Shown here piece after piece: positions 1 through 21,481 of a stretch of 21,481 nt of DNA. Numbering within the stretch: the stretch's first letter is position 1; each line of letters opens with the position of its first letter. The translations under genes and the position numbers were made by a program. The stretch covers positions 1 to 21,481 of the forward strand of contig KZ992681.1 in assembly GCA_003614735.1 (NCBI GenBank), written 5' to 3'. The notes under the pieces were generated by a model. The model saw only the letters and a program-made list of their open reading frames with translations. It had not been told where the DNA came from and made no database searches. This stretch comes from Thamnocephalis sphaerospora (Eukaryota; Zoopagomycota; Zoopagomycetes; Zoopagales; Sigmoideomycetaceae).

Positions 1-815
1 CCGGCGAGGTTGTGGCGGTGGGCTCGGACGTTACCGGCTACAGCGTCGGCGACCGTGTGGCCTACATTGGCGCCGGCAGCTACTCTCAGTACACCGCTGT
101 GAGCACCACCTGGGTAACCAAGCTGCCTGACAACATCTCCTATGAGAAGGGTGCTGCCATTTTGCTGCAGGGTCTGACTGCGTGGACCATGATTATCAAG
201 TCATATCCGGTGAAGAAGGGCGACTGGGTGCTGATCCATGCGGCTGCCGGCGGCACCGGTCGCTGGCTGGTGCGGCTGTGCAAGCGTGCGGGTGCTCATG
301 TAATTGGCACCGTGTCTTCTGCGCAAAAGGAAGCCATTGCGCGCGCTGATGGCGCTGACGTGGTGCTCAACTACTCTGCGCAGCCTAGCGAGGTGGCCGA
401 AGGCGACGTGGCTGTGGATCGCCGCCTGTTGCGCGACATTATGGATGCTACGGACGGCAAGGGCGTGCACGCCGCACTGGACGGTGTCGGTCGTCGCACC
501 TTTGATCTTAGCCTCAGTGCCCTGCGACGCCTGGGCACGCTCATCACCTTTGGCAATGCTAGCGGGCCTGTGCCGCCAGTGGACGTGCTGCGACTGTCCA
601 AGGGCAACTACCGCCTGATGCGCACGACGCTGTTCCAGTACATCACGACGCGCGAGGAGTTTGACGAGTACGCGCAGCCGTTGCTCAACGCCGTTGCTGC
701 TGACGAGCTGGATGTGCCCATTTGCGCCGAGTTTCCGCTTGCCGAGGCGGCCAAGGCGCATGAGTTCATCGAGGGTCGCAACACCACCAGCAAGATTGTG
801 CTCAAGATCGACTAG
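1..815 (+). CDS. NADPH:quinone oxidoreductase, 3' part (5' end outside window)
   Basis: This is the C-terminal part of a zinc-independent medium-chain dehydrogenase/reductase of the quinone oxidoreductase (QOR/Zta1-like) family. Such enzymes reduce quinones or related enones with NADPH, usually in the cytosol. The frame is already open at base 3 and runs without an intron to TAG at 813-815, giving about 270 residues of an enzyme usually near 325, so some 50 N-terminal residues and the start are missing. Visible marks are the GDRVAY and LLQGLTAW segments, then the Rossmann nucleotide loop HAAAGGTGR, then GAHVIGT, the DGVG strand and a C-terminal SKIVLKI ending. Most relatives have a hydrophobic residue after the last glycine of the AAxGGxG loop; here it is arginine. 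No zinc-binding cysteine cluster is seen, as expected for QOR. Its stop lies only 171 nt from the stop of convergent ATG3. The family is clear; the exact substrate is not. Confidence 0.92.
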   Translation, partial: GEVVAVGSDVTGYSVGDRVAYIGAGSYSQYTAVSTTWVTKLPDNISYEKGAAILLQGLTAWTMIIKSYPVKKGDWVLIHAAAGGTGRWLVRLCKRAGAHVIGTVSSAQKEAIARADGADVVLNYSAQPSEVAEGDVAVDRRLLRDIMDATDGKGVHAALDGVGRRTFDLSLSALRRLGTLITFGNASGPVPPVDVLRLSKGNYRLMRTTLFQYITTREEFDEYAQPLLNAVAADELDVPICAEFPLAEAAKAHEFIEGRNTTSKIVLKID

Positions 816-986
816 TGGCGCGAGAGCACTGGTAGGCGCACGTTTGAATGCCTATACGGAATACACTGTTGCATTTATACACGTGTGCAATAATGGAGCG
901 ACGACAGCCGTCTTTTACACACCGTAACATCCATCCTCTGTCTGCAGCAATGCGCCAGGCGCGTCCTTGTCAAACACGCGCGCAGA

Positions 987-2169
987 CTAGCCTTCCATGG
1001 CCATGGTGTAGTCGTAGTCGATGGTGGGCAGGATGGCAGAGAGGAATTTGAGAAAGATGATCATGTAATAGTCGACGCGCAACTCGACGCCGCTGGCGGC
1101 CGTCCGTTCGATGATGCGTTTCATCACGTCAGCATGCTTGCACGGATGCACCGACGCCATGGAAATGTCCATGTGCGGGTGCGGGTCGATGGTGACCGTT
1201 TTGCGCGCATGCTCCTGAGAAATGTCCTCAAAGATCTGCGTGGCAGAAAGCGGGCGTCGGTGCTCGTCGTATCCAAACAGCCAGACACGCGGCGTCTGGT
1301 AGTACTTGTCGTATGTAATGCTGATGTCGTAGGTGCGTGTGCGCAGAATATTATCCGAGCCACCTGCTCCATGAGTGCGCAATGCTGCCGGGTCCTCCTC
1401 ATCTTCGATGGCGCAATCGTCAAAGTCATCGAGTGCATCGTCAATGTCGGGTATATCGTCCTTGACGGACACCTGCTGCACGCGCGCAGCCAACTGTGCA
1501 TCAATATCTGCAGTCTGCTCTCCCTCGTCGTCAATGTCGCCAATATCATCAATGTCGCGAATGGCGCCCTCTGTACTTGATCCTTCTCCGGCATTTCGAT
1601 CCGTGTGCGTAGCAAGCCAGCTCTCCTCATCCTCAGCGCCTTCCTCTGCCAGCGAGGCAAGCACCTCGCGCTCATCATCGCCCGTATACTCCAAATCCTT
1701 GGCCCTCTTCAAGCACGGCACTGCATTGGTAGGGTGGTAAGATGAATGCTATCTCACTGGCATGCGTCGCACATACCATTCTTTGTAATGAGAAACTGCT
1801 TGTCAGCCGGCAGGTAGTCTCGCTGCTTGGATGCTAAACCGCCCGACCTGGCGAGCACCCGTACACTCGCATCAGCAACAACTAGACGTGGCGTGCATGC
1901 GCAGAACAAGACGTACCATTGCCAGGTGGGGCACTTGTAGACGAGAAAGTCACCTGCAGCAATAAACTAGACAGTCACGCGCACGCCACAGGTGAACATC
2001 GCATGGTCAGCCTGCTAGCGGCGTCTTGAAGAGCACGCTTGCATCCTTCTCGCACACCTTGCCCACCCACCTCTTCAGGCGTCAGCACGCCCGTTTCACG
2101 AAATTTAGATTCCTTCAACAGCGGGTTTAGGTATTCGCGCACGCTGTGGAAGAGGTTGTGCACGTTCAT
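987..2169 (-). CDS. ATG3: ATG3, E2-like enzyme conjugating Atg8 to phosphatidylethanolamine (4 exons)
   Basis: Atg3 takes Atg8 from Atg7 as a thioester and transfers it to phosphatidylethanolamine on the growing autophagosome. I join exons 2169-2071, 1966-1917, 1847-1777 and 1720-987; phases agree and give 317 codons, against 314 residues in human and 310 in yeast. The start is the ATG opening MNVHNLF, followed by the membrane-sensing N-terminal helix and [15 protein letters not shown]. Exon 2 gives [17 protein letters not shown] and exon 3 ends QFLITKN. Exon 4 holds an acidic flexible region (about residues 85-185) with DIDD repeats and a SWLATH segment placed like the Atg8-interacting region. 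Next come [16 protein letters not shown] and the catalytic HPC motif (Cys about 267), ending in [13 protein letters not shown]. All donors are GT and all acceptors AG. The gene is divergent from THO2 and convergent with the oxidoreductase. Identification is near certain; the first-exon start is the only reasonable ATG in frame. Confidence 0.95.
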
Positions 2170-2866
2170 GTTGGGACTGGCGACTGCTCGCTGAGGTCCG
2201 CCGTTGGATGCGCAGCTGAACTGTTGACCGCAATGGATGGACAATCCACGCCGATGGTGCGGAGGTGGCAGTGATGCCTGGGTGCCTGGAATGCGGTGTT
2301 TGGCCTGAAAGGCGCCAGTACAGTCGCCGTTTGCTTGTGTGGAAAGCAGAGGCAGCAAGGAGATGTAGAGGGGACACGGTGGTACGCGCAGTGATGGCAG
2401 TGTGGCAAGCGAGGAAACGTTGGTAGCAGTGGCTTTAGAGGAGCAAGCTTGCGTCACGCTGACCGTCACTGGGAGAAAACTGTGACAGTTTTTGACCGTT
2501 CGTCACCTGGTGCTTGGAGGGATGATGACGCTGTGACACTCTGCCAATGCCAACGGACTGTGTGTCCATAGTAGCAAAGGTTAGCTATAGCTCAGGTGGC
2601 TGACTGACGATGACTGTCAGTAGTCTGAGTGTATACTCTGACTTGAAGCTGTGGCCTTTGCTTATAGCGATGTTCACAAGCGGCCATTCAGCCCGTAATT
2701 TCGCATACTCCTGTTCCCGAATGAAAGCGTCTTGAGCTAGTAAATCGCCTTGTAAATAGAGGCACCAGCAGCGCTGCTACGGTATAAGCTTGTAACGTAG
2801 GGACAAATAAAGTGTCTGCTCTTTGGCAGGTAGCTTTCAACAGCCCAGCATTGATTACTCCAGAGA

Positions 2867-2906
2867 CCACCATCATTGCCACCATCATTGCCATCATTAT
2901 TACCAT
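2867..2906. repeat. Short degenerate tandem repeat (CATCATTGCC units)
   Basis: Two copies of CATCATTGCC (2871-2880 and 2883-2892) are followed by a diverged third, ATCATTATTACC. It lies in non-coding sequence between ATG3 and THO2 and looks like a simple slippage repeat. Confidence 0.7.
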
Positions 2907-3100
2907 AGTAGGTTGCAATGGTAGGTGTACAGCCGGCATGGCCTATAGCATACGCAATGGCGTAGCATCATCATTTAACCAGTGGTGTATCTTGAATGGC
3001 CGATAAAGCCGCTGGTGTGGTGGTCTGTTCAGCATTAGTACCACATCATTGGGAAATAGTTGCTTGGGCCAGTAGTGTGTAAAACTGCCTTAGCTTAGTT

Positions 3101-3110
3101 GCGCATGCGC
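3101..3110. promoter_or_regulatory. GCGCATGCGC palindrome upstream of THO2
   Basis: A perfect 10-bp palindrome lies 188 nt upstream of the THO2 ATG, just before a pyrimidine-rich leader. It resembles the animal NRF-1 site, but that factor is not expected in fungi, so a regulatory role is only inferred from position and symmetry. The same core also occurs near 3388 inside THO2 coding sequence, so chance occurrence is possible. Confidence 0.25.
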
Positions 3111-3297
3111 CGTTTGTTTGGATCGCTCCACTACTCCATCCATCCATCGTTCTCTTCCGCCTGGTGCGTTTGCGCATTCTATTGCTACTGTTGGCTGGTC
3201 GACGCTACCAAGCGGCGAGCTATTTGTCTTTTGCCGCGTTCTACTCAACGCTACGCGGTGTGTTGTGTTTACCGGCCAAGCCGACGGCAACGGCGAC

Positions 3298-6200
3298 ATG
3301 GCGGCGGCGAACGTGCTAGACACGGCGACCATCGCCGCCATGAACCTAGGAGAAGAACAGACGCGTGTGCAGCTACAGCGACAGCTGGCGCATGCGCTTT
3401 CAGCGGGCGAGGAATCGTGTGTGTTTGCCCTGGTACAGGCGGTGTGCGATCCGCACCGACATCACAGCGTCACGGGTCTGACTGTGGCGCAGCTATTGCA
3501 GCACGCGTGGCACGAGGTGGAGGATGCACGTGCGACAGCGCGCGCCAATGCGGCCATGCTGAGCTCGCTGAATGGCACGGCATCTGCAATGGACACCGAC
3601 ATGACCGTTGATGGTGTCGCCATCGAGCCGGTTGATCTGGAGACGCTGCTGGTGGATGCCGTCTGGGTGGCAGACGTGGAGCTGGACGACACAGAGGCTG
3701 ACGCAGCTGTACGCTCTCGCCGACGTGACGCGCTGATTCAGCTGATCACGATTGCCAAGGATCAGGGCCTGGTGCGCGAACGCATCATGCAGGAACGCCT
3801 GGGCACAGAGCTGCTTGGACGAGCACTCTCTCGCTTTCCTGTCAAGCCATTTGAGACCGAGTGTGTTCGTCGACGTACTACGATGATCTACAAGCAGCAG
3901 AAATTCAACTTGCTGCGCGAAGAGTCTGAAGGCTACGCAAAGCTGGTGACGGAGCTGACGCGCGAAATGCCAAAGAACGGCGTGCCTGCTGCGGTTGTGG
4001 AGAAGCGGGCGCAGGAAACGCTACATCGTGTACAGTCGTTGATTGGTAAGTGTTGATGATGCGACAAGTGCAATGTCGGTCGTGCCGATCGTTGCAATGG
4101 CCGAAATCATTAACGGCTCCTGCGTGCGCTAGGATACTTTGATTTGGATCCGAACCGCGTGCTGGATATCTTGCTGGACGTGTATGCCTACAATCTATTC
4201 CGGTATCACCGCTATTTTCTGGAGCTGATTCGCGCACCGCTATGGCACGGTAACCAGGACCGACCGACAAACGGCGCTGCACAGGCGGCAGCCCAGAAAC
4301 TTGGGCGGCCTGGCACGGTGAATGTGCTGGCACAGCTAATGGGGCAAAAGTTTGCCTACTATAGCCGTTGGCAGCGGGAGCACACTGGAAAGCAGACGCG
4401 CACGCCTGAGGAGGTGACTTTTGCAGCGGCGCTACTCATCCACGAGGGCTTGATGACCGTGGAGGATGTGCTCCCTCATTTGACGCCGACAGAGGAGGAG
4501 TGCAACGGCGAGTATATCAAGTATTTGACTGGCAAGATTGATGGATTGCGCAGTGGCGGTGTTGGCGCACTTGCAGTAAGTGACACGTTGCTTGCGGGCG
4601 GCTGATCACGTACTCATTGGATACGCCTTTAGATGGCGGGTGCTCTGGTAGATGATACACCTGGCATAAGTATGAACCAGAGCAGCAGCAGTATAGGAGG
4701 CGCAGGAGGTGACAGCCAGTCTAGCGTAAGTTTTATGCCGTTCTCGGCGTAGCGCATTGATGGTCACTATGCATTCGGCTCACTAGCATGTCACGATGCT
4801 GCACATAGTCCACACCGGCCCTTGTGCATCCGCCGCCACATCAGCGTGCAGATCTGTGTGCCGCGCTGCTGGCCATTGGTAGTCTCAATCCTGCACTACG
4901 CCTGCTAGCTCGGCAGCCACATTTGCCAAACACGCGGCCGGACATTGCGCTTGCTTTGGGCCGTGTAATCGACCATCTTATCGAGCCAATTTATGCGGTC
5001 GTTCGACCGACACCCCGGCGCACTGTAACGCCCAGCGGTCGACACGAGTACACGTGTGATATCCTAACGGCCGCCGGTGGCATCTTCTTCTACGCCGAGT
5101 GGGCCGACAAGCTGGAGGCAGACCAGCTTTCGGCGGCCGGTTCGCTGGTCGACATTGTTGGTCGGTTGCGGCGTCTACTGAGCTATCTGCAGCTAGGACT
5201 GGCCAAGAGTCCTGCGCTGTTTGTGAAAATATGCCGGATTGCAGTGCACTCGCTCGAAACGGCTGCCGCGACGGACACAGCGATGGCAGCTGACACATGG
5301 GCGAGCGTTATCCGCGACTACCTGCTGCCGGCAGTGTCGTGCATGCGGGCGAATCCAGGTAGGACGTTGTCGCGCACATCTGTTCCCATCTGCTGGGCAT
5401 TAACGCATATCGTCATTACTGATGATGTTGTGCACCTCCAATGTGTCACCTCTAAAGCGGCATTGAACGAGCTTTGGCAACTTCTTGAGCGCTACGACTA
5501 TCGGATGCGGTACGTGTTGATCTGGCAGCGTGGATATCTTGTGCAATCTACGTAATGTGATATCTGATGTACTGACTACACCGGCGTACGGCTAGCTTTG
5601 GCATGTACGGCGAGTGGAATCGGCGCTATGGCGAGAACACACGGCTGGCGCGTGCCACCAAGGAGAAGAGCTGCACCTGGGGTCTGGTGCTTGCGCGAGC
5701 CAAGACCGAGTCCAATATCAAGAGAATCATGCAGTAAGTGGCGCTGGGTATGCCCGGGTTTAGCGGCACAGCGTTGACGGGGTCATCACCCTCTGCAGGC
5801 GCATTTCGGCCGAAACGATCAAGGAGAGTGGTCGTCGCTTGGCCAAGGCATCGCACTCCACGCCTACCGTTGCCTTTCACGCTATTCTCTTTCAGCTACG
5901 CACCTACGATAACATGACGCAGAGTGTGACGGACGCGTTCAAGTATTTCAGCCGCTTTGGCTACGATGTGCTTACCTGTATCCTTTACGCAAAGGCGATT
6001 GCAGCGGGTGATTGTTAGTTATCACGACGCTATACACTTTGACGGTGAATGGCGATGTCTTGCCTGTCTCCCTGTACAGACACGATGCTGGAGCTGTTTG
6101 CTAGTGGCCAAAACCGGATGCAACAAGATGGACAGCACATTTCCCTGTGGCTACGGAGTACGCATTACTGTGCTGCGCTCATTTTGCTTGCATTGGCTGA

Positions 6201-11817: not shown

Positions 11818-13770
11818 CTAGTGGGTGGAGGACTCGGCATTGCGCATCATCTGCTGGCGCCAGGCCCAGTAGGCGGATGAGTCGTCGCCGGTGATGTCAC
11901 TTTCGTTGCTGTCGCCGTAGCTGTCATCAGTGACGCGCGCACGGTCGGACATGATGGTTGGCGAGTCTGTTTGCAGATCGCTCATCGAAACGCCGTTGGC
12001 CTCCATTACGGCGCGAATCGCATCTGGCAGGCGGATGGTGACGTCCACGGTGGGACTGGACGTGTTTGTTTCTGCGCTGGTGGCGAACCTGGGCGTTTCC
12101 ACGTCAAGTCGCTCCTCAGAGGCCACGGCAGTAGCCAGGTTAAAGAGAGCATTGCCTGCGTCCAGCTCAGAGTCCGGGCGCACTCGTGTAAGCGGAGCCT
12201 GGGCGTTGGCGTTGTATGAGCCGCCCAGCGAGTAATAGTCGGTCACTTCCGATTCAGCCACCGAATCGCGCTGGAACGTAGTGTCACCGGCGCCAGGATA
12301 GTCTGCGTGCAGGCCGAGCTCTCCCGTGCGCGGGGTCATGGCCGACGCCACGTCACTCGGGGTGGCCGGTTCAGTGGCAAGAGCGTCAAAGACGTGCATG
12401 GCAAAGCTGGATCGCATCCAATCAGCTTCATGATCACCGGGCTTGGCCTCCGTTGCCGCATTGTTTTCTTTGGTGATCGCCATTTCGGCGGACACAGCCG
12501 GAGAAGCGCTAGCGGTAGGTGGCCAGTGTGCATACTCCTCTCCACTCGTTGCGCTTCCGGGTGTACTTGGCGTATGGTGCGACATGCGACCATCCGGCGT
12601 CAAAAGATCCTCCACATTGTCAACAACAGTGGCGCGGTGTGCTGAGCGTACCGTTTCCCGACGTGCAATTGTCACGGCTGGCATGGAGCAGTCAGACTCT
12701 GCCGTACTGTCGGGGCGCCATGCGCTGGACGTGTTGCTTATTTGACGCCGATGCTGTCCGCTTTCCTGAAGCTCCTGGATCTGATGATGATGCGGCAAAA
12801 TACCCACGTCTGCGTTCATGATACTGGCTAGGCTAATCTCAGCCGGCAGCTGAGTGGCCACTGACTGCTCGGTATGGGCGGTACTGGCCGACTGATCCGT
12901 ATAGACCTCGGTCACCTGCTGGTCGATGGCGGCGGCAGCGGCTGCCACCATGGCGCTCAGCGAGCCTGTTGTAGGCTGCGTATTGGGGCTGTATGCGCTG
13001 GTCTCCGTGGTAGGGAGGGCGGTCGTTGGCAAAGAGGTGGCCATGTAGGCCGCAGAGTTCAGGCTGGACGCGATGGCCGGATGGTACACCGAGTTGTTGA
13101 TCTGCAGATGCGGCGACAAAGGTGACTGCGGCGAACGAGGTGTGCCCTGCTCATTCAGAACAACCTCGGTGAATTCGGCCAGATCAGCGGTTGCACCAGC
13201 TGCCGCTTCGTAGCTGGGCTTGTTTGGGCTTGTCGGATGATTGGCATAGTACATGCTGCGCGGGTGGGCCCTGGTAGCCTCGGAGAAGGCGCTTCCTGCG
13301 GATACACGACGCATGCTGTTGTGCATGGTCGTCGGCGAGCGCATGCTGGAGGCCATGGTGCTATGGACGCTATGGCGCTTTTGGCGGAACCAGACAAAGC
13401 CAGCCACCACAGCAGCAAGCACCAGCGCACCACACACACCGCCAATGGCAATGGGCACGGCGGAGGATCCCGAGTCGACATCATCGGAGTTGGTGGTGCT
13501 CTTTTGAGCTGCTGCACCAACAATGGACTCTTTGAGGTTCATGCATTTGGCTTCCGGGCAACTGTTACAGGTGCGTACCGTCAGCGTACAGGTTTCTCCG
13601 CTTGGGCATCCTCTCTGGCAGGTTGGTGGTGGGCCGCACGGCACACAGCTAGGGGACACTGTGGGCTGCCCCGAGGCGGGTCCGAATTGGGGCTTGGCCG
13701 TTCCGCTGCTGGCCATCAGCAGCAGGCCGAGGCCGGCAAGCAACACGGCGCGCCCAACTAGCGCGCGCAT
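11818..13770 (-). CDS. Opy2-like single-pass membrane anchor of HOG/osmosensing MAPK signalling
   Basis: An intronless frame of 650 residues. Residues 1-25 form a signal peptide (Leu/Ala-rich core ending GTAKP). Residues 42-76 hold eight cysteines with spacing C-x2-C-x5-C-x3-C-x5-C-x6-C-x2-C-x4-C, including CPSGETC and RTCNSCPEAKC, which matches the extracellular Opy2 module. Residues about 104-128 are a transmembrane helix, followed at once by the basic stop-transfer RQKRH. The remaining 520 residues are cytosolic, Ser/Thr/Pro/Ala-rich and probably disordered, ending in a distinct YWAWRQQMMRN motif. In yeast, Opy2 holds the adaptor Ste50 at the plasma membrane to activate Ste11 in the HOG pathway. 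The call rests on the cysteine module and topology; the tail is longer than in yeast Opy2 (about 360 residues in all) and its Ste50-binding segments cannot be assigned by eye. The upstream minus-strand sequence is pyrimidine-rich, as in many fungal promoters and leaders. Confidence 0.8.
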   Translation of the reverse strand: MRALVGRAVLLAGLGLLLMASSGTAKPQFGPASGQPTVSPSCVPCGPPPTCQRGCPSGETCTLTVRTCNSCPEAKCMNLKESIVGAAAQKSTTNSDDVDSGSSAVPIAIGGVCGALVLAAVVAGFVWFRQKRHSVHSTMASSMRSPTTMHNSMRRVSAGSAFSEATRAHPRSMYYANHPTSPNKPSYEAAAGATADLAEFTEVVLNEQGTPRSPQSPLSPHLQINNSVYHPAIASSLNSAAYMATSLPTTALPTTETSAYSPNTQPTTGSLSAMVAAAAAAIDQQVTEVYTDQSASTAHTEQSVATQLPAEISLASIMNADVGILPHHHQIQELQESGQHRRQISNTSSAWRPDSTAESDCSMPAVTIARRETVRSAHRATVVDNVEDLLTPDGRMSHHTPSTPGSATSGEEYAHWPPTASASPAVSAEMAITKENNAATEAKPGDHEADWMRSSFAMHVFDALATEPATPSDVASAMTPRTGELGLHADYPGAGDTTFQRDSVAESEVTDYYSLGGSYNANAQAPLTRVRPDSELDAGNALFNLATAVASEERLDVETPRFATSAETNTSSPTVDVTIRLPDAIRAVMEANGVSMSDLQTDSPTIMSDRARVTDDSYGDSNESDITGDDSSAYWAWRQQMMRNAESSTH

Positions 13771-15623
13771 GATAGTCGACGCGAAGACGATGCTAAAAGG
13801 CTACGACAGCAACGCGACAGCTTGTGCCAGGCAATGCGTTCCTGGCTCTGCAGGTGCTATGCAAACCCTGCAGCAGTACTGGTGGCCACCTGGCCAATTA
13901 GCCGAAAGGCGCGGTAGGATGGTGCAGTATAGCACGCTTAGATAAAAAGCACGCACAAAGAGCGCGCGGGCTCACAAAAGGGCGCACCACGCTGTAAGAA
14001 TAGAGGAAAGACCGACGTCACGACCGTAGGGTGTCTGTAAGCACGCAGAATTGGCGCACGCACAAACAACAAGAAGACAGAAAGGGACAGACGTGGTTGG
14101 TGAATGATGTAGAAGGAAACAGTGGCAGAATGGAATTAGCGAACAATAACTGTGGCCAGCATACGAGGGGAGCAGGTAGAAAAAGGTCCCGGAGGAAAGG
14201 GAGAGGGCGCCGCTGTTTTGGTGAACAGCAAAAGGCGTGTACCGCCAAGCAGACCGACAGAGAACTGCGCCCACACAGCCTTGCGTGGAACGGTGGCGAA
14301 AAGCGAGAGGAAGACGGAAGAGGCTGAGGTCCACAGAAGACGGCCAGCGTTGATGGTCGGACGGATTGGCAGGATAATGCGACCTGTACGTCCAATGCTG
14401 GAAGAGGAAGCAACGCCGTAAAAGGCAGTAGTGCAAGAAAGAGTAAATGTGGATAGAAGCAAGCGCTGTAGTGTAGAAGGCACAAGTGGTGGCCGTGCTG
14501 CGTAGCGCGGTCGAGGCGGAAACACCATGCCGTCGGCGTGCGGGGCATTTGCGGCGTCAAGGGGGCCATGTCTGACGCCGCCAGCACGCACGTCCAAAGG
14601 CCAGTGCTTATGCACCGGACACGCTAGCCAGGTGGGGCCACGATGGATGTGTGCGTACCCGGCGATGGGTGATAGGCAACGGACAGTGCGGCTGGCATGG
14701 CTGGCATGGCTGGCCTTTACAGTGGCTAGCGCGCCATGAAGCGGCTACATGCAGGTGAAGCAGGGCCAGACATCCTAGACCGCCGTCGTTCCACGTGGTG
14801 GATACAGAAACGGCATGATGACTGGCTCGCGCTGTAGGACGCAGCATGGCCAGAAATAGCAATGGCCCTTAATGTTGGCCGCCAATGGGCGCGAGCCAAG
14901 ACGTGCCCAGCGATTGTAAGCGGCTTTGCAGCCATCGCTGCGCAAATGCAGGTGGTACCAAGGATCAGCAGCCCGGCTACGGCGGTCAGCGGGTACAGGG
15001 TGTGAACAGCCAGCCCAAGAATGCATACTCTGCCGTCGCGCCGCGCTGTCGCTCTGTGACACGTCCGCGGAGGTGCGGGTTTGTTACGCAGGTGTGTCAA
15101 ACAACCGCAATTGGGCGCGCCATTCTAGTCACGCCGCCAGGCTGAAAGCAACCAAGCCAGCGGTGCAGAGCGTTCAGTACTGCGTAGGTGCGGAAGACTA
15201 AGGCGAGATGGGCGATACTATCGGCATGACCATGGCGCACAGCTGCTACACCCAAAGTAGTGAGTGCTATTTCAATGCAGTGCGGTGGCATCTGCATACT
15301 AAAAGACGCCGTTGAAACACTGAAACCCTTCAAGCGTAGTGCGCGCACTTCAGCACACACGGAATCTGTTTCGTCGATATGCCGGAGGAATAGCCAACGC
15401 CAGCGCGATAATGCGGCAACACATTGTCACACTCACTTTTGCACTGCGCCTCCTTGAAAGCACGCTACTGCGCTATAAATGTCGGCATTCAGTCCCATTT
15501 AGTGCATTAGAGTGGCTTTGAGTTGTCAAAAACAAGTGTCCTGATACACCGTGTCGTCGGCATCGCATTCCAATGCTGTAGCTAGCTACAAGGCCGCTAT
15601 GCTGTCCAAGCAGTCGACAGCTG
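13771..15623. other. Gene-poor interval upstream of the OPY2-like gene
   Basis: About 1.85 kb with no gene I can support. From about 14000 to 14480 the plus strand is strongly purine-rich, so the minus strand is a long CT-rich tract suited to the leader or promoter of the OPY2-like gene. Minus-strand frames there read as Leu/Ser/Pro-rich strings that this composition alone would produce. Further right, two minus-strand frames contain hydrophobic stretches: one from an ATG near 15296 to TGA near 15097, and one around 14930-15030 reading GLLILGTTCICAAM. No splice join between them is convincing. They remain a weak hint of a small membrane protein. Confidence 0.5.
14692..14714. repeat. Short tandem repeat (CTGGCATGG units)
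   Basis: Two full CTGGCATGG units and a partial third lie head to tail in non-coding sequence. No function is apparent. Confidence 0.75.
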
Positions 15624-15630
15624 TATAAAT
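15624..15630 (+). promoter_or_regulatory. TATA box of the 15820 secreted-protein gene
   Basis: TATAAAT lies 196 nt upstream of the ATG at 15820 and is followed by CCGCGTAGTG. It predicts transcription from about 15655 and a leader of about 165 nt. No ATG was noticed in that leader. A closely similar context occurs at 19801. Confidence 0.5.
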
Positions 15631-15819
15631 ACCGCGTAGTGCTGTGCTGCAACGAATACTGATTCATACACTGCTCCTATCGATTCACCAGCATATCTGC
15701 AAACATCACCGCAAGCCTTCGCAAACCGGGTCTAGCTTCATCTTTGCTGCAGGCAGCACACAACACTAGCACCAACCATCAGTCTCCACTCGTCATCCAT
15801 CGCCATTCAAAAGCACACC

Positions 15820-16445
15820 ATGCTGAGCTACACTCGAATCACGCTAGCCGTTGCTGCTCTGACACTGCTGCTGGGCAATCAGATGCTTGCAAGCGCACAG
15901 GATGTCGATTCAGAGTCAAGCGGATCCGGCAAAATCAGCCTCAGCGCCGAGATTACTGTTGTAACGCCAAGAGCCCTTATTTCCGATGACAGTAAGTAGA
16001 TGCTAATGCTACAAATGTGTGATGCTTGCGGGGCATGCGAACAGCATGTCGCGATGCTGTTTAGCCATACCACCATACATTTCCATCGCAATATGGACTT
16101 GCGGCGTTTGCGACATGCCCTTGGAGACATAGCACTCCCTACCAGTGTAATGATACTAACGTGATGCCGCATATAATAGCTCATCCAGGCAAGAATGTAC
16201 TAGTGACATGGAGCGCGGCCATCAACGGAAAGAATCTAGATTCAAAGACCGAGTGGTGGAATGACGATACGCCGTACACCAATAAGTTTGGAGACTGCGA
16301 CTCGGAGACAGGCTGCGTGTCTGTAGATGGGGAGGGCGGTAGTTACAGCATGACAGCCAAAGTGGGTGGACAGGAAGTCACATGTCCGTGCAACTGGTCT
16401 GGATTCCCGGGTAGAGGCCGGTGCATTGCTGAATGCTCTTCCTGA
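15820..16445 (+). CDS. Small secreted cysteine-rich protein, 145 residues (2 exons)
   Basis: I do not recognise the family. Exons 15820-15991 and 16180-16445 join in phase (GTAAGT donor, ATACTAAC branch site, AATAG acceptor) to 145 codons plus TGA. The start is the first ATG after the TATA box. Residues 1-27 are a clear signal peptide with an Ala/Leu core ending ASAQ. A Ser-rich linker follows, then ISLSAEITVVTP. Exon 2 gives HPGKNVLVTWSAAINGKNL, the aromatic TEWWNDD and YTNKFGDC. All six cysteines lie in exon 2: one pair in GDCDSETGC, one in TCPC and one in RCIAEC, so three disulphides are plausible. There is no transmembrane segment or GPI signal. The NVLVTWS segment gives it the feel of an immunoglobulin-like beta-sandwich, but this is only an impression. 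A secreted structural, cell-wall or host-interaction role is possible and cannot be decided here. Confidence 0.72.
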
Positions 16446-16597
16446 GCATTCGCAAACAGCGATAGACAGTACACACGATTGCAGATAAAGATCGATTTAT
16501 GCAGCGAGACGCAGTGCAATATCGAATGTGGCTTGATGTCATGCCTGCCTGTACACGCGCATTTACGCGTGCATTTGCGCCAGGACGCGACCGCATC

Positions 16598-18261
16598 TCA
16601 CTCGCGCTGGCTCAGGCTCATGTTACTCATTTGACTACCGAGCCCCGCCAGATCCGAATCATCATCGGATTGCATCTGAAATGCCATGAGGTGCAATTAG
16701 CGCACAGAAACATCACCGCGCACGGTACTGACTTACCACAAATACGTTCAGGTTTAGAAGGCGCATCTTTTGCTTCAATTCCAAAATCTCCTTTAGATCA
16801 TCGACATACTCCAGTTCCGTGCCATCTACCTTTCGCCAGCCACGCCCCTCCCACGTGCCGATGAGTTGGTTGACATCTGCGTGCGTTTGGGCATTAGACG
16901 CCAATGTCATATATCTCTGTATCATTAGCACTCACTGTGTATGTAGTTATTATTCTTGTTACACCCTTCAACACGGATTGTTACGTTGAGTCTTTTGGTC
17001 AAACTAGCTTTAAGAATTTCGGCAAAGGCCTAGCGACAATGCATTCAGCAGTATGACTAGCTGTTTGTTTAGCACAGCTTTTCGTACCATGAGCTGCGCA
17101 AAATGCACGGTGCTTTTTTCGTATTCGGCGTGGGCGCTAACGGAGACTGCGCGTTAGTCGTGCTGAATAGCAGTAAATTTAAATTGCTCACACCGAGGAT
17201 ACGTCAATCAAAACAGCAAGACAGGGCAATGGCTTGCCCACACTGGGTACAACGCTACCTAGAGTTATACCCACACTTTTGGAATGTCACTCACCTCTCG
17301 GAGCCTCCGCCACGACTTACGGTATACCAAGAGCTTATGGCATTACCGTTCTTGTCTCTAGTTTCACCGCTATCAATGGAAAGCGTTATTTCCTCGGCTG
17401 TGGGAAGAATGATATTGTAATGCCTCAGAATGGCCTGACAGGCGTTGGCTCTGGCCACTTTGCAGCCATCTGTGCTGCGATGGTTGATGGAGGAGATTGC
17501 GGTCACCTTGATTTTTGGTAAAAAAAACGCTGAGCTTCTCCAGTATATCCTTGTTGGGGCGAGGCCGGTTTCCTTTCATAAAATCCTGTCCTTCATACTG
17601 TTTAATGTAGCCCACAACGTCTGCAACAGCACGAGTAAGAAACGCGTGCATTAGGCACCCCCAGCCACATTACATTTTATGTATTTGTCCTTTGCATTGC
17701 TGGCATCGTAGACGAGCGTTAGACGGTCAATATCCAAGGCCTCGGCATTCTCCAGAATTTCCAGTAACCCCTGCACGGCATTTTGTCAGGCACGCGGCGC
17801 ATGCTGTAACTATGTGCAATGGACTCAAGTTACGCGCTTACCACCAGAATTGCTCTGTACCGTGTCTGTTTGGGCCCATCCAAGAGTCTGCCTCGGCTGC
17901 GGTGCCCAAGTATGATCGCTTGTTAATGCAAAATCCAGGGTTGCATACCGCTGCTCAAGAAGAGACGCTGTACTTACCCTTTGCGACAACACACTGGCTG
18001 CCTCTCGCAACGCTCAGTGCACTCATGTTTTGCCTGCCAATGTATACCGTATGCCGCAATAGAAGTAGCATACGTGTCCGCATCATAGACTTGTCCACTA
18101 ACATATACGTCGACATCGTCGGTATCGTCGGCACTCGAAGCATCTTCACGGTACGCGGCAGCCTCTTTGACATCATCAATATCGCGAAAGCTCTTGGGGT
18201 CTTTCTTCCGCTGATAATGATCCTGCGCCGACACGCCTCCGTGGTTGCCCCGAAAAATCAT
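16598..18261 (-). CDS. Tandem RNase H-like protein with degenerate active sites (multi-exon, one frame break)
   Basis: Best reading: exons 18261-17978, 17896-17842, 17770-17674, 17620-17347, one starting at 17146 (3' end unresolved), 16916-16737 and 16675-16598. Domain 1 follows RNase HI order. Strand 1 is VYVSG (TDG in active enzymes); then SIAAYG; then GPKQTRYRAILVGLLEIL (RQTNQRAE in RNase H1). The next strand is LVYDAS (YTDS), then the handle region YIKQYEGQDF, RPRPNKDILEKL, and a last strand with INH before CKVARANA. The four catalytic positions read Ser, Ile, Ala and Arg; only the late His remains. Domain 2 starts ITLSIDSGE and continues with helix QLMVRKAVLNKQL, strand YMTLASNAQ and GTWEGRGWRKVDG, matching the GWKKNGWKTSAG handle; its later aspartate is also lost. 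A short acidic tail ends the protein. Domain 1 keeps frame into 17507-17347 only if one base of the T8 run at 17520-17527 is skipped. Exon 1 might instead end at 18048. An intron-bearing, non-catalytic RNase H fold suggests binding or scaffolding. The fold is fairly convincing; exact splicing is not. Confidence 0.6.
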
Positions 18262-18398
18262 GGTGCAGCTTGATTGTCTTGCAATAGAAGCGGTCAGTCT
18301 TGATGGGTCAAGCGACGTATGGTGCAGAAAGCGCGGCAGACAAAAGAGTGGCGATTGGTTGGGGCAAGCGACCCTTTTTGCTCGGCATCTTGCTGCAC

Positions 18399-18404
18399 CT
18401 TATA
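18399..18404 (-). promoter_or_regulatory. TATA-like element of the RNase H-like gene
   Basis: TATAAG reads on the minus strand 138 nt upstream of the ATG at 18261. A 26-codon frame with ATG at 18388 begins only about 11 nt after this element, so it is probably upstream of the transcription start. Confidence 0.35.
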
Positions 18405-19221
18405 ACGCTCGCGCCGCCTTTACAGCTAGCGCTATTATTAGCCAACGGTATGGTACACCGCAGTAACGCCTTTTCTTTGTTCTTGAGTGCAACATCTGCA
18501 CGTCTGTATACCGCTACACGTGTGCATACATTTCGCTTAATTTTTTGGCCCACAGAGGCCTTTGAAGCAGCATAGATTTCCAGCCGATACGTGTGTCTGC
18601 ACGAGCATGATTTGACATTGGGCGGTAGTGCGTTTATTCGGTAAACAGCTGATCACCTGCTAGAGGTTGTACACGTAGGCTCGCTGATGGTGTAGACTTG
18701 GGCACAACTTTCGTCGTTTTCCAGATGCTTGTTTGTGTGTGACGACCTGTAACGCGCATTGCACCGATGACGTACGAACGTTGTGCAAACACTACTGAGA
18801 AGAGCACGCGACCAAAAAGCGCACAGAAGCTCGGTCAAATGCTGGTTGAGTGCAGGTCAGTGCGTTGCTCTGTCGTCTTGTGCGGTGCTTGTGCTTGACG
18901 AAAATCTCGTTGCTGTCATTGCTGCGGCCAATCCATGAAAAGCCGCATTTGCAAAGTCGTCGCATATCTGATGCCAAGGCAATTACAATCACTTTGCCAT
19001 TCTGTTCTACGCCCGTAAAGTGCCGCTGGTCGCGTATAAATGCTGCACACGGCACCATACTGGTTTGCTGACAACATACACAAACTGATTGCATCTAACC
19101 CTCATTGATACGCATAAACTTTTTACGACTCTCATATGTATTGACGAGTGCTTTATGGCTGCACTCATACAAGCCACATGCGCACACACAAATAAAAAGG
19201 ACAAGCCGCTCATCTGTAAAC
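18405..19221. other. Interval without a supported gene
   Basis: About 800 nt. A minus-strand frame of 100 codons with an ATG at 19094 contains KVIVIALASDMRRL, but it has no signal peptide, no splice partner and no family match that I recognise. On the plus strand an AATAAA lies near 19191 with no plus-strand gene before it. Most of this interval is probably the promoter of the RNase H-like gene and the 3' flank of the secreted-peptide gene. Confidence 0.5.
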
Positions 19222-19227
19222 TTTATT
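19222..19227 (-). terminator. AATAAA polyadenylation signal
   Basis: AATAAA reads on the minus strand about 20 nt after the stop of the secreted-peptide gene (19247-19610), a close but workable distance for a polyadenylation signal. Confidence 0.5.
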
Positions 19228-19246
19228 CACTTTCGGATGCCCGGCA

Positions 19247-19610
19247 TTACGGGTTAACCTTGGCGCTTCTTCCAATCGCCTCCGTCTGCGGTTGCGCCGC
19301 AGGATTGCTGCCAACACTGATCAAGGGCCCGACATATTGAGATGTAGGACCAGCTGACGCAATAGACGGCGTAGAGCCAAGCCCCTGATCTTGAGATGCA
19401 TCAAAGGCACCTGGGATCAACCACGGCCTGCGCCAAGCGGTACATTCAATGGCAATGCACTGTGTAAGCACAAGCATTCATAGCAAGGTGAGTTTGAGCG
19501 ACCTACCAAGGAAAAACATCATCACGGCCAATCGGAGACCCATATACTCCTTTGGATGCAGCAATGCAAAGCAAGACTAGCGCAGTTGCCACAGATTTGG
19601 TAGTGTACAT
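19247..19610 (-). CDS. Small secreted peptide, 94 residues (2 exons)
   Basis: I do not recognise the family. Exons 19610-19507 and 19427-19247 join in phase (donor GTAGGT, acceptor GCGCAG, 79-nt intron) to 94 codons plus TAA. The start ATG sits in a CA-rich leader (CCAACACACCAACATG), similar to that of the 15820 gene. Residues 1-24 are a signal peptide (TALVLLCIAASKGVYG). The mature part begins SPIGRDDVFPWPWLIPGAF and is then rich in Gly, Ser, Pro, Ala and Gln with no cysteine and no membrane segment. If the intron were not spliced, the frame would stop at TAG just after VFPW, so the splice matters. An unstructured secreted or wall-associated peptide, or a precursor processed after its Arg/Lys sites, is possible. 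A TATA sequence lies 191 nt upstream and AATAAA follows the stop. Confidence 0.65.
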
Positions 19611-19800
19611 GTTGGTGTGTTGGATAGACAAAGAGCCAAAAAACCGATGCAGATGCAGTGTCAAGGGAATGATTGCCGTGCTATGACGTTGGTGATGATG
19701 CCTGATAGTCTGATGCAAAAGATGCAGTAGTATGGGAGAGAACACAATGCGCGGAAGAGTGCATGGAAGCCTGGTGCGCAAATACACGGATAGACGCCGC

Positions 19801-19807
19801 TATATAA
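19801..19807 (-). promoter_or_regulatory. TATA box of the 19610 secreted-peptide gene
   Basis: TATATAA on the plus strand (TTATATA on the minus strand) lies 191 nt upstream of the ATG at 19610, almost the same spacing as the TATA box of the 15820 gene. The element is nearly symmetric, so it could also serve rightward transcription. Confidence 0.4.
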
Positions 19808-21481
19808 CGCGTAGTGGCACTGGGCATGGACTGCGTTCAAAGGCGGATGCCCAAGCGCTGGGTCAAAGCCAGGCGCGGTTGGCGTACCGATGCTCCCGCC
19901 CAATAGAACGACGTGCCGAAAGTGTACACATTGGCAGTGAGCACATCATACCTGTCGGTATCCATTGTGCATAGGCGATGCATCGTGCTTAGTCAACCGT
20001 AGGATAGCAGCGCACAGCCCAGCGCACAGCTGACCGACTGACGGATGGGCATTGTAACGATGTGTCCAACTCAGCGTGAGCTGTATTACACTCGCGCACT
20101 ATCACTCGCTATCACCGCCACACAGCAGAGCATCACAGCTACTGTCATTGCGTCATTGGAGTTGCTCTTCACCGCTGCATTTGTCATTGCCTTAGCTCTG
20201 ACTGGCTGGGGTAGCACTGGTGCTGACGCTGTGCAGACATTGGCGCAACACGGTCAGTCATCTTTGTGGCACGCATTTCCTTTGCGGCGGCTATCAAGCA
20301 TCCGTATCGCCGCCTCAGCTCAAGTCTGTCCATGTGGGCCAAAGACAGATCGGCTTTATCGTGTTGGCTGGCGCGGATGCTTCCGGGCGCTTCCTATCGC
20401 CATGTGCGCAGTTGCAGCCATTGCCGTGACATGGTCTTCCCTTGCCATTTCCGATTGAGCTCGCGCCTGACCATCATACTCGTGGTTTGCGCGTGCGATG
20501 CGGGTGAAACAGCAGCTGCCAATGTGGCATTGGCGAATGACAAGAGGGGTATCCAGGACTACACGAGTGGTTTCCTAACGGGCTCAGCACCCACGTCACG
20601 GCCAGCGTGTGAATCTATTTCCAGCATGCTCTTCGGATGTCAGGTGCCACATACACACATACACTTGCGCGACGCAGCAATAGGCCAACGGCGCGTTAGC
20701 CCAAAGGACATGGCCACCGTGCTGCCTAGAATGCGGCAGTGAATACCGATGCTGGACCACTTTGCTATGCGAGGGTGGGATGCCTTTGTGACGACTGGCA
20801 CGCACCGTCATAGCACGAGGCGCGGGGTGCGTGTGAAGGCACAAGAAGCAGCACGCGCACACTGAGCCCAAACGTGGCTGTCACATTCACATGCACGCGC
20901 TGTTACGCCGTTTACATCTGGCACAGTATACAGTGGATACGCCTCGTGCGTGTGTGTGCTGCATAGCCGCCAGCAGGCTGCCAATGTGCTTATGCAACCA
21001 ATGCACGCCGTAACACTCATGTCAACGCTACGTCCCACTAGATGCTCATCTTCCAACCCCAACCAGAATTGGCTGCGCGACACGCACCCTGTTTGCTAGA
21101 ACGCTACACATTGCAACGCTACGTTCGGTCAAATAGGCCTAGGTGATTTGGCGACACAATGCTTGCGTAATAGCAATAGGCCAGCTAGGGGCGGCTCGCA
21201 GACAAACGCGCCAATACTCTGCGCGCCAGCTGGACAATGAAACAGTCTAGCGTCCGCCTATTTGCATGTATCCCACCGCAGCTAGTGTCGCGCGGCCGGC
21301 CAGTGCGACAACCAAACTCATTCAAATGCCACGTACAAACAGCACGCTTGTCCATTCGTCCAAAAATGCAAAAGCTGCACAAATCTACCTCGATGTGACA
21401 CAACACGCCGACCTCCGGGATGATAATGGCACGTGCTGGGCACATATAGCCCGGATAGCAGCAGCTCAGCACCGTGACAGG
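19808..21481. other. Right end of window without a supported gene
   Basis: About 1.67 kb. Two plus-strand frames are the least unlikely. One starts at an ATG at 20045 and has a hydrophobic stretch (LLFTAAFVIALALTGW) before running to 20458. Another is open from 20266 to 20742 without an early ATG and contains TIILVVCACDAGETAAANVA. I could not find a splice join that links them in phase. A minus-strand cysteine-rich frame at 21185-21472 has no supporting feature. A divergent gene, a pseudogene or plain intergenic DNA all remain possible. Confidence 0.45.

Follow-up and report, generated by a model that had tools for sequence, protein, structure and literature searches.

The 21,481-nucleotide (nt) window analyzed here is the whole of contig C257 in the 14.46 Mb, 594-contig assembly of Thamnocephalis sphaerospora (Zoopagomycota), a mycoparasite whose sequencing, as described in PMC6784888, combined single-cell genomics with co-assembly; neither "transcriptom" nor "RNA-seq" occurs in the main text of that paper. 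On the minus strand lies a spliced gene, running from an ATG at 18261 to a stop codon ending at 16598, that likely encodes two dead ribonuclease H (RNase H) domains, of which only the C-terminal one (domain 2) is secure. The gene comprises eight exons separated by seven introns, all GT-AG and 53-158 nt long, and leaves about 374 codons without an in-frame stop, with the exception of one frame break. Its features are as follows.

17978..18261, minus strand: exon 1, with the ATG at 18261, an acidic N-terminus and the first strands of domain 1; the same in the public protein P0001
17842..17896, minus strand: exon 2, with GPKQTRYRAIL, the start of helix A of domain 1
17674..17770, minus strand: exon 3, with helix A, strand 4 (LVYDAS) and the start of helix B of domain 1
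17295..17620, minus strand: exon 4, with the handle, helix D, strand 5 and helix E of domain 1 and strands 1-2 of domain 2; contains the frame break
17088..17136, minus strand: exon 5, with AHAEYEKSTVHFAQLM of domain 2; absent from the public protein P0002
16936..17029, minus strand: exon 6, with helix A and strand 4 of domain 2
16737..16876, minus strand: exon 7, with the handle WEGRGWRKVDG, helix D and strand 5 of domain 2
16598..16675, minus strand: exon 8, an acidic, Ser-rich tail (MQSDDDSD...) and the stop; helix E not recognizable; outside the partial public models
17417..18120, minus strand: domain 1, probable RNase H-like, introns included
16652..17395, minus strand: domain 2, RNase HI-type with an incomplete catalytic set, introns included
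17520..17527, minus strand: T8 run at the frame break, with the +1 frame used afterwards; the same in the overlapping contig C252
17475..17598, minus strand: 124 nt treated as an intron in both public models, with consensus-like ends GTATGA...CGCAG

The original prediction had placed a spliced minus-strand gene at exactly these coordinates, and every splice junction of the eight-exon model within the reach of P0001 is also used by that protein. The public entries found are THASP1DRAFT_24138 and THASP1DRAFT_26480, both from T. sphaerospora; THASP1DRAFT_24138 is named "hypothetical protein," lists no Pfam domain, and shares every junction within its reach but removes another 124 nt of exon 4. 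P0001 corresponds to exons 1-7 minus an extra 124-nt intron (17598-17475) in exon 4 and with one Gln/Arg difference, while P0002 follows the same structure with an earlier donor at 17320 and without exon 5; both are partial and end before exon 8. Codon usage, with 33 long open frames drawn from 20 regions as the training set, gives the expected frame a positive score in exons 1, 3, 4 (both halves), 5, 6, and 7 and a value slightly below zero in exons 2 and 8; among intron frames, the highest score is +3.4 bits. DNA and protein searches of the genome recovered the gene on C257 and a truncated copy on C252, whose positions 1-4775 equal window positions 16707-21481 with three mismatches (99.94% identity), one being the Gln/Arg difference in exon 7 and two lying in intron 4. 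Because the C252 copy is a contig overlap with only these mismatches, we regard both as one single-copy locus. The overlap, either left unmerged or representing a haplotype, points to heterozygosity or to duplication in the assembly. No paralogue was found in the genome besides this overlap.

By sequence comparison and modeling, the C-terminal half of the product is a degenerate RNase HI-type domain, with a similarity well above chance. Domain 2 scored 17.2 bits against a bacterial RNase HI profile of 81 sequences (79 genome loci, E. coli, and the RNase H1 of T. sphaerospora itself; one of 80 loci was dropped for a stop in its plain translation), and 29.1 bits against a six-sequence RNase H1-like profile, or 20.5 bits without the nearest member; none of 2000 shuffles scored as high in any of these comparisons. 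Shuffles that returned no score were counted below the observed value (for instance, 1448 of 2000 were scored for domain 1 against the 81-sequence profile). The smaller profile combines the own and human RNase H1 with four viral sequences. A search with a two-sequence alignment recovered six viral-contig loci related to RNase H1, two of which were identical to others and were dropped; a single-sequence search of the viral contigs returned none. Two viral-contig loci are related to domain 2, one of them on the contig of L109, and alignment with viral-contig RNase HI reached a score of 106 (0 of 3000 shuffles), the best of 582 genome pieces reaching 48. The unmodified public protein also matched the PHROG 3265 "ribonuclease" family (E 1.1e-6). 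Finally, the AlphaFold model returned 926 Foldseek matches, 31 of them at E <= 0.001 (best E 1e-4), and all 50 of the matches listed were RNase H or reverse-transcriptase RNase H.

The evidence for domain 1 is mixed, as controls were as high in 0-1% of cases for some tests and in 4.5% or more for others, and by sequence we consider it a probable RNase H-like domain. The stretch VDVYVSG...VARANACQAIL is co-linear with the own RNase H1 across the 124-nt segment (score 52; 0 of 2000 and 0 of 3000 shuffles). Against human RNase H1, 12 of 2000 shuffles were as high, and against the six-sequence profile domain 1 scored 4.2 bits (8 of 2000 shuffles and 4 of 582 genome pieces as high). The public version lacking the 124 nt scored 5.7 bits (4 of 2000), no worse than the longer exon, so that this profile gives the longer exon no advantage. 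The first strands alone were not significant (4443 of 5000 shuffles as high against the own RNase H1, 622 of 5000 against human). The piece after the frame break, aligned alone, fits best on strand 1 of the own RNase H1 (75 of 5000), which serves as a warning on its register; when an alignment with RNase HI was made for guided modeling, strand 1 of RNase HI fell on domain 1. The two domains are weakly alike (7 of 2000 and 11 of 2000 shuffles as high), and each is about 20% identical to E. coli RNase HI in alignment A2. Of the two tandem folds originally predicted, the second is thus borne out by profiles and Foldseek, and the first is suggestive, several of its tests being not significant. The boundary between them had been misplaced: KVTAISSINHRSTDGCKVARANACQ corresponds to strand 5/helix E of domain 1, with domain 2 beginning near EITLSIDSG. 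A nearly gap-free fit to RNase H1 can be claimed at best from helix A onward, as A2 places an insertion of about 13 residues ahead of that helix.

Neither domain retains the full Asp-Glu-Asp-Asp set in the alignments. At the positions of E. coli D10, E48, D70, H124, and D134, domain 1 reads Ser, Ile, Asp (or Ala one register on), gap, and gap in A2; of the Ser, Ile, Ala, and Arg named initially, the first two hold, Ala depends on register, and Arg lies nearby (VARAN). Domain 2 reads Asp, Gln, Glu, gap, and a tail Asp in A2, while alignment A5 places Gly at 10 (with Asp two columns earlier) and Ser at 134. Its position 134 falls in an unanchored tail where the final Asp helix is not recognizable. 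The active site originally proposed for domain 2, with Ser replacing the Asp of its TDS strand, is not borne out by the alignments, which place Glu at 70 and Gln at 48. The late His was not found in either domain by alignment. Loss of the catalytic Glu abolishes or strongly lowers cutting by RNase HI. Since both domains lack this residue (domain 1 has Ile there, domain 2 has Gln) as well as a complete carboxylate set, neither would be expected to cut.

We therefore tentatively favor, at just under an even call, a lineage-specific, single-copy, spliced gene whose product, with a degenerate RNase HI-type domain preceded by a probable RNase H-like one, would act, if used, as a non-cutting binder. 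Non-cutting binding would be the most likely action because domain 1 is basic (charge at pH 7 of +6.1) and domain 2 keeps the substrate-gripping handle. It is possible that the domains sit on an RNA:DNA hybrid or structured nucleic acid without cutting it. Alternatively, they may pair with a partner such as the active RNase H1 of the same genome, much as a dead tether domain pairs with active RNase H in retroviral reverse transcriptase. A bolder form of this idea appears unlikely: that one zoopagalean lineage evolved a stand-alone cellular protein with two dead RNase HI domains that reads RNA:DNA hybrids or acts as a partner or antagonist of RNase H1, independently paralleling the retroviral tether. 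If the gene is used, it would provide a case in which non-catalytic RNase HI domains stand in tandem in a cellular protein rather than in a retroelement, alongside a normal RNase H1, and would allow one to ask how a nuclease becomes a binder.

Several observations weigh against a two-domain binder. The Pfam family PF00075 matched neither the whole protein nor either domain, and the Pfam search gave no RNase H in any piece; the NCBIfam ribonuclease H model PRK06548 gave 15.4 bits, below its cut-off of 280. Confidence of the AlphaFold model is low, with a mean predicted local distance difference test (pLDDT) score of 40.3, values of 59-74 at residues 181-240 and 30-46 in the rest of domain 2. 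Domain 1 was not significant against the bacterial 81-sequence profile (89 of 2000), against E. coli RNase HI (287 of 2000), or with its handle alone (440 of 5000), its four matches in a PDB sequence search included no RNase H, and the score of 52 against the own RNase H1 was reached by 2 of 242 translated genome pieces. Moreover, exon 4 has one open frame only until the T8 run at 17527-17520 and continues in the +1 frame, a break that cuts domain 1, went unmentioned in the original prediction, and is sidestepped in the public models by the 124-nt intron that skips 42 residues of this domain. Domain 2 is acidic (-6.0), which does not favor nucleic-acid binding. Lastly, searches returned no relative outside T. 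sphaerospora, its own two entries being the only ones among 3965 (whole protein), 388 (domain 1), and 352 (domain 2) candidates, although a distant orthologue could be missed because the protein searches need shared five-residue words; without such relatives, no conservation shows that the gene is used.

A decaying relic is a serious rival, and we consider it possible, if somewhat unlikely, that a duplicated RNase H gene is on its way out, having lost its catalytic residues, helix E of domain 2, and the frame of domain 1, with a transcript, if any, free of selected function. The occurrence of the T8 break in both overlapping contigs and the lack of relatives elsewhere are consistent with decay, as are the lost catalytic residues. 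Against decay stand the seven GT-AG introns, the frame that is open apart from the one break, and the positive codon usage in the expected frame for most exons. Were it a relic, the locus would be an ordinary decaying duplicate.

That the 124-nt intron is real and domain 1 is no folded RNase H, leaving one dead RNase HI domain behind a divergent N-terminal extension, is doubtful. Both public gene models contain this intron with its consensus-like splice ends, domain 1 is weak in profile tests, and in the AlphaFold single-sequence model of P0001 (42 residues fewer) domain 1 lacks RNase H-like strand order at pLDDT < 50. The structure-prediction check initially proposed recovers RNase H for domain 2 and, for domain 1, bears only on this shortened version. 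Nevertheless, the supposed intron looks partly coding: its first 23 codons score 5.5-6.6 bits in codon usage, a level matched by 2.2-2.4% of stop-free off-frame controls and reached by 11-15% of true coding windows, whereas the final 14 codons carry no clear signal, 15-18% of off-frame controls scoring at least as well. The co-linearity of domain 1 with the own RNase H1 across these 124 nt likewise argues for two domains. A 22-nt microintron at 17528-17507 would restore the frame and was rejected, being far shorter than the other introns and removing the end of helix D.

A domesticated fragment of a long terminal repeat (LTR) element with dual RNase H (tether plus RNase H) is highly improbable, given the seven introns, the absence of RVT_1 matches on C257 or C252 (six genome-wide, only the best candidates being scored), the absence of direct or inverted repeats >= 25 nt in window positions 15000-21481, and the affinity of domain 2, whose nearest counterparts in our comparisons were bacterial and viral-contig RNase HI. 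These results accordingly support the original proposal of a cellular gene that is spliced and carries one or more degenerate RNase H folds.

The genome also encodes a canonical RNase H1 with a hybrid-binding domain on contig C150. A degenerate version of that domain at the N-terminus of our gene was considered and rejected (1398 of 5000 local and 627 of 5000 global shuffles as high against the own hybrid-binding domain). On contig C46, a 554-residue frame (L015, 2623-4284, minus strand) carries a C-terminal RNase H (PF00075, 32.8 bits) behind a Lys/Ala-rich region, and further RNase H pieces, some with stops, lie on contigs C15, C182, and C380. Kinship of our gene with the pieces on C46 and C15 is weak at best, domain 1 against C46 giving 80 of 3000 shuffles as high and the other three comparisons lying at chance.

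Among neighboring genes, window positions 990-1748 (minus strand) encode an Atg3/Atg10-type protein with an Autophagy_act_C domain (E 4.2e-47). A THO complex subunit 2 gene occupies 3094-5552 (plus strand) and beyond, with three exons matching THOC2_N, and Arg/Ser/Gly-rich frames up to about 11127 may, by reading only, be its C-terminal part. A 660-residue frame at 11821-13800 (minus strand) has an Opy2 domain (26.0 bits; cut-off 22.1). Upstream of the gene on contig C252, a frame (L003, 4545-6095, plus strand) resembles, by eye, a subtilisin-type protease.

Among known systems, RNase HI and eukaryotic RNase H1 (PF00075) share with the two-domain gene their strand-helix order and the handle WEGRGWRK; the gene differs in its duplicated domain, replaced catalytic Glu, position below Pfam detection, and lack of a detected hybrid-binding domain. 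The closest sequences seen to domain 2 are the PHROG 3265 "ribonuclease" family and L109, an RNase HI on the viral contig IMGVR_UViG_2706796186_000001 (35% in the best segment, residues 47-120); the L109 frame, unlike domain 2, retains the Asp, Glu, Asp, His, and Asp motifs. In Prp8, a very large protein of the spliceosome, a lone non-catalytic RNase H fold serves as a scaffold. Actin, FtsA, and HSP70 contain RNase H folds in tandem, but these belong to a different clade and have nucleoside triphosphatase activity; domain 2 matches RNase HI itself. The RNase H literature consulted describes no fungal family of this layout, as originally stated, nor any cellular protein with dead RNase HI domains in tandem, but it does describe tandems of one dead and one live copy in retroviruses and some LTR retrotransposons. 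The retroviral connection (tether) plus RNase H and the dual RNase H of Tat, Chronos, and Archon elements resemble our gene in having two folds in a row with at least one dead, and domain 2 apparently lacks the last helix, as does the reverse transcriptase connection domain according to PMC3985635. The gene differs from these retroelements in that it carries no reverse transcriptase, both of its copies are likely dead, and it occupies a spliced cellular locus.
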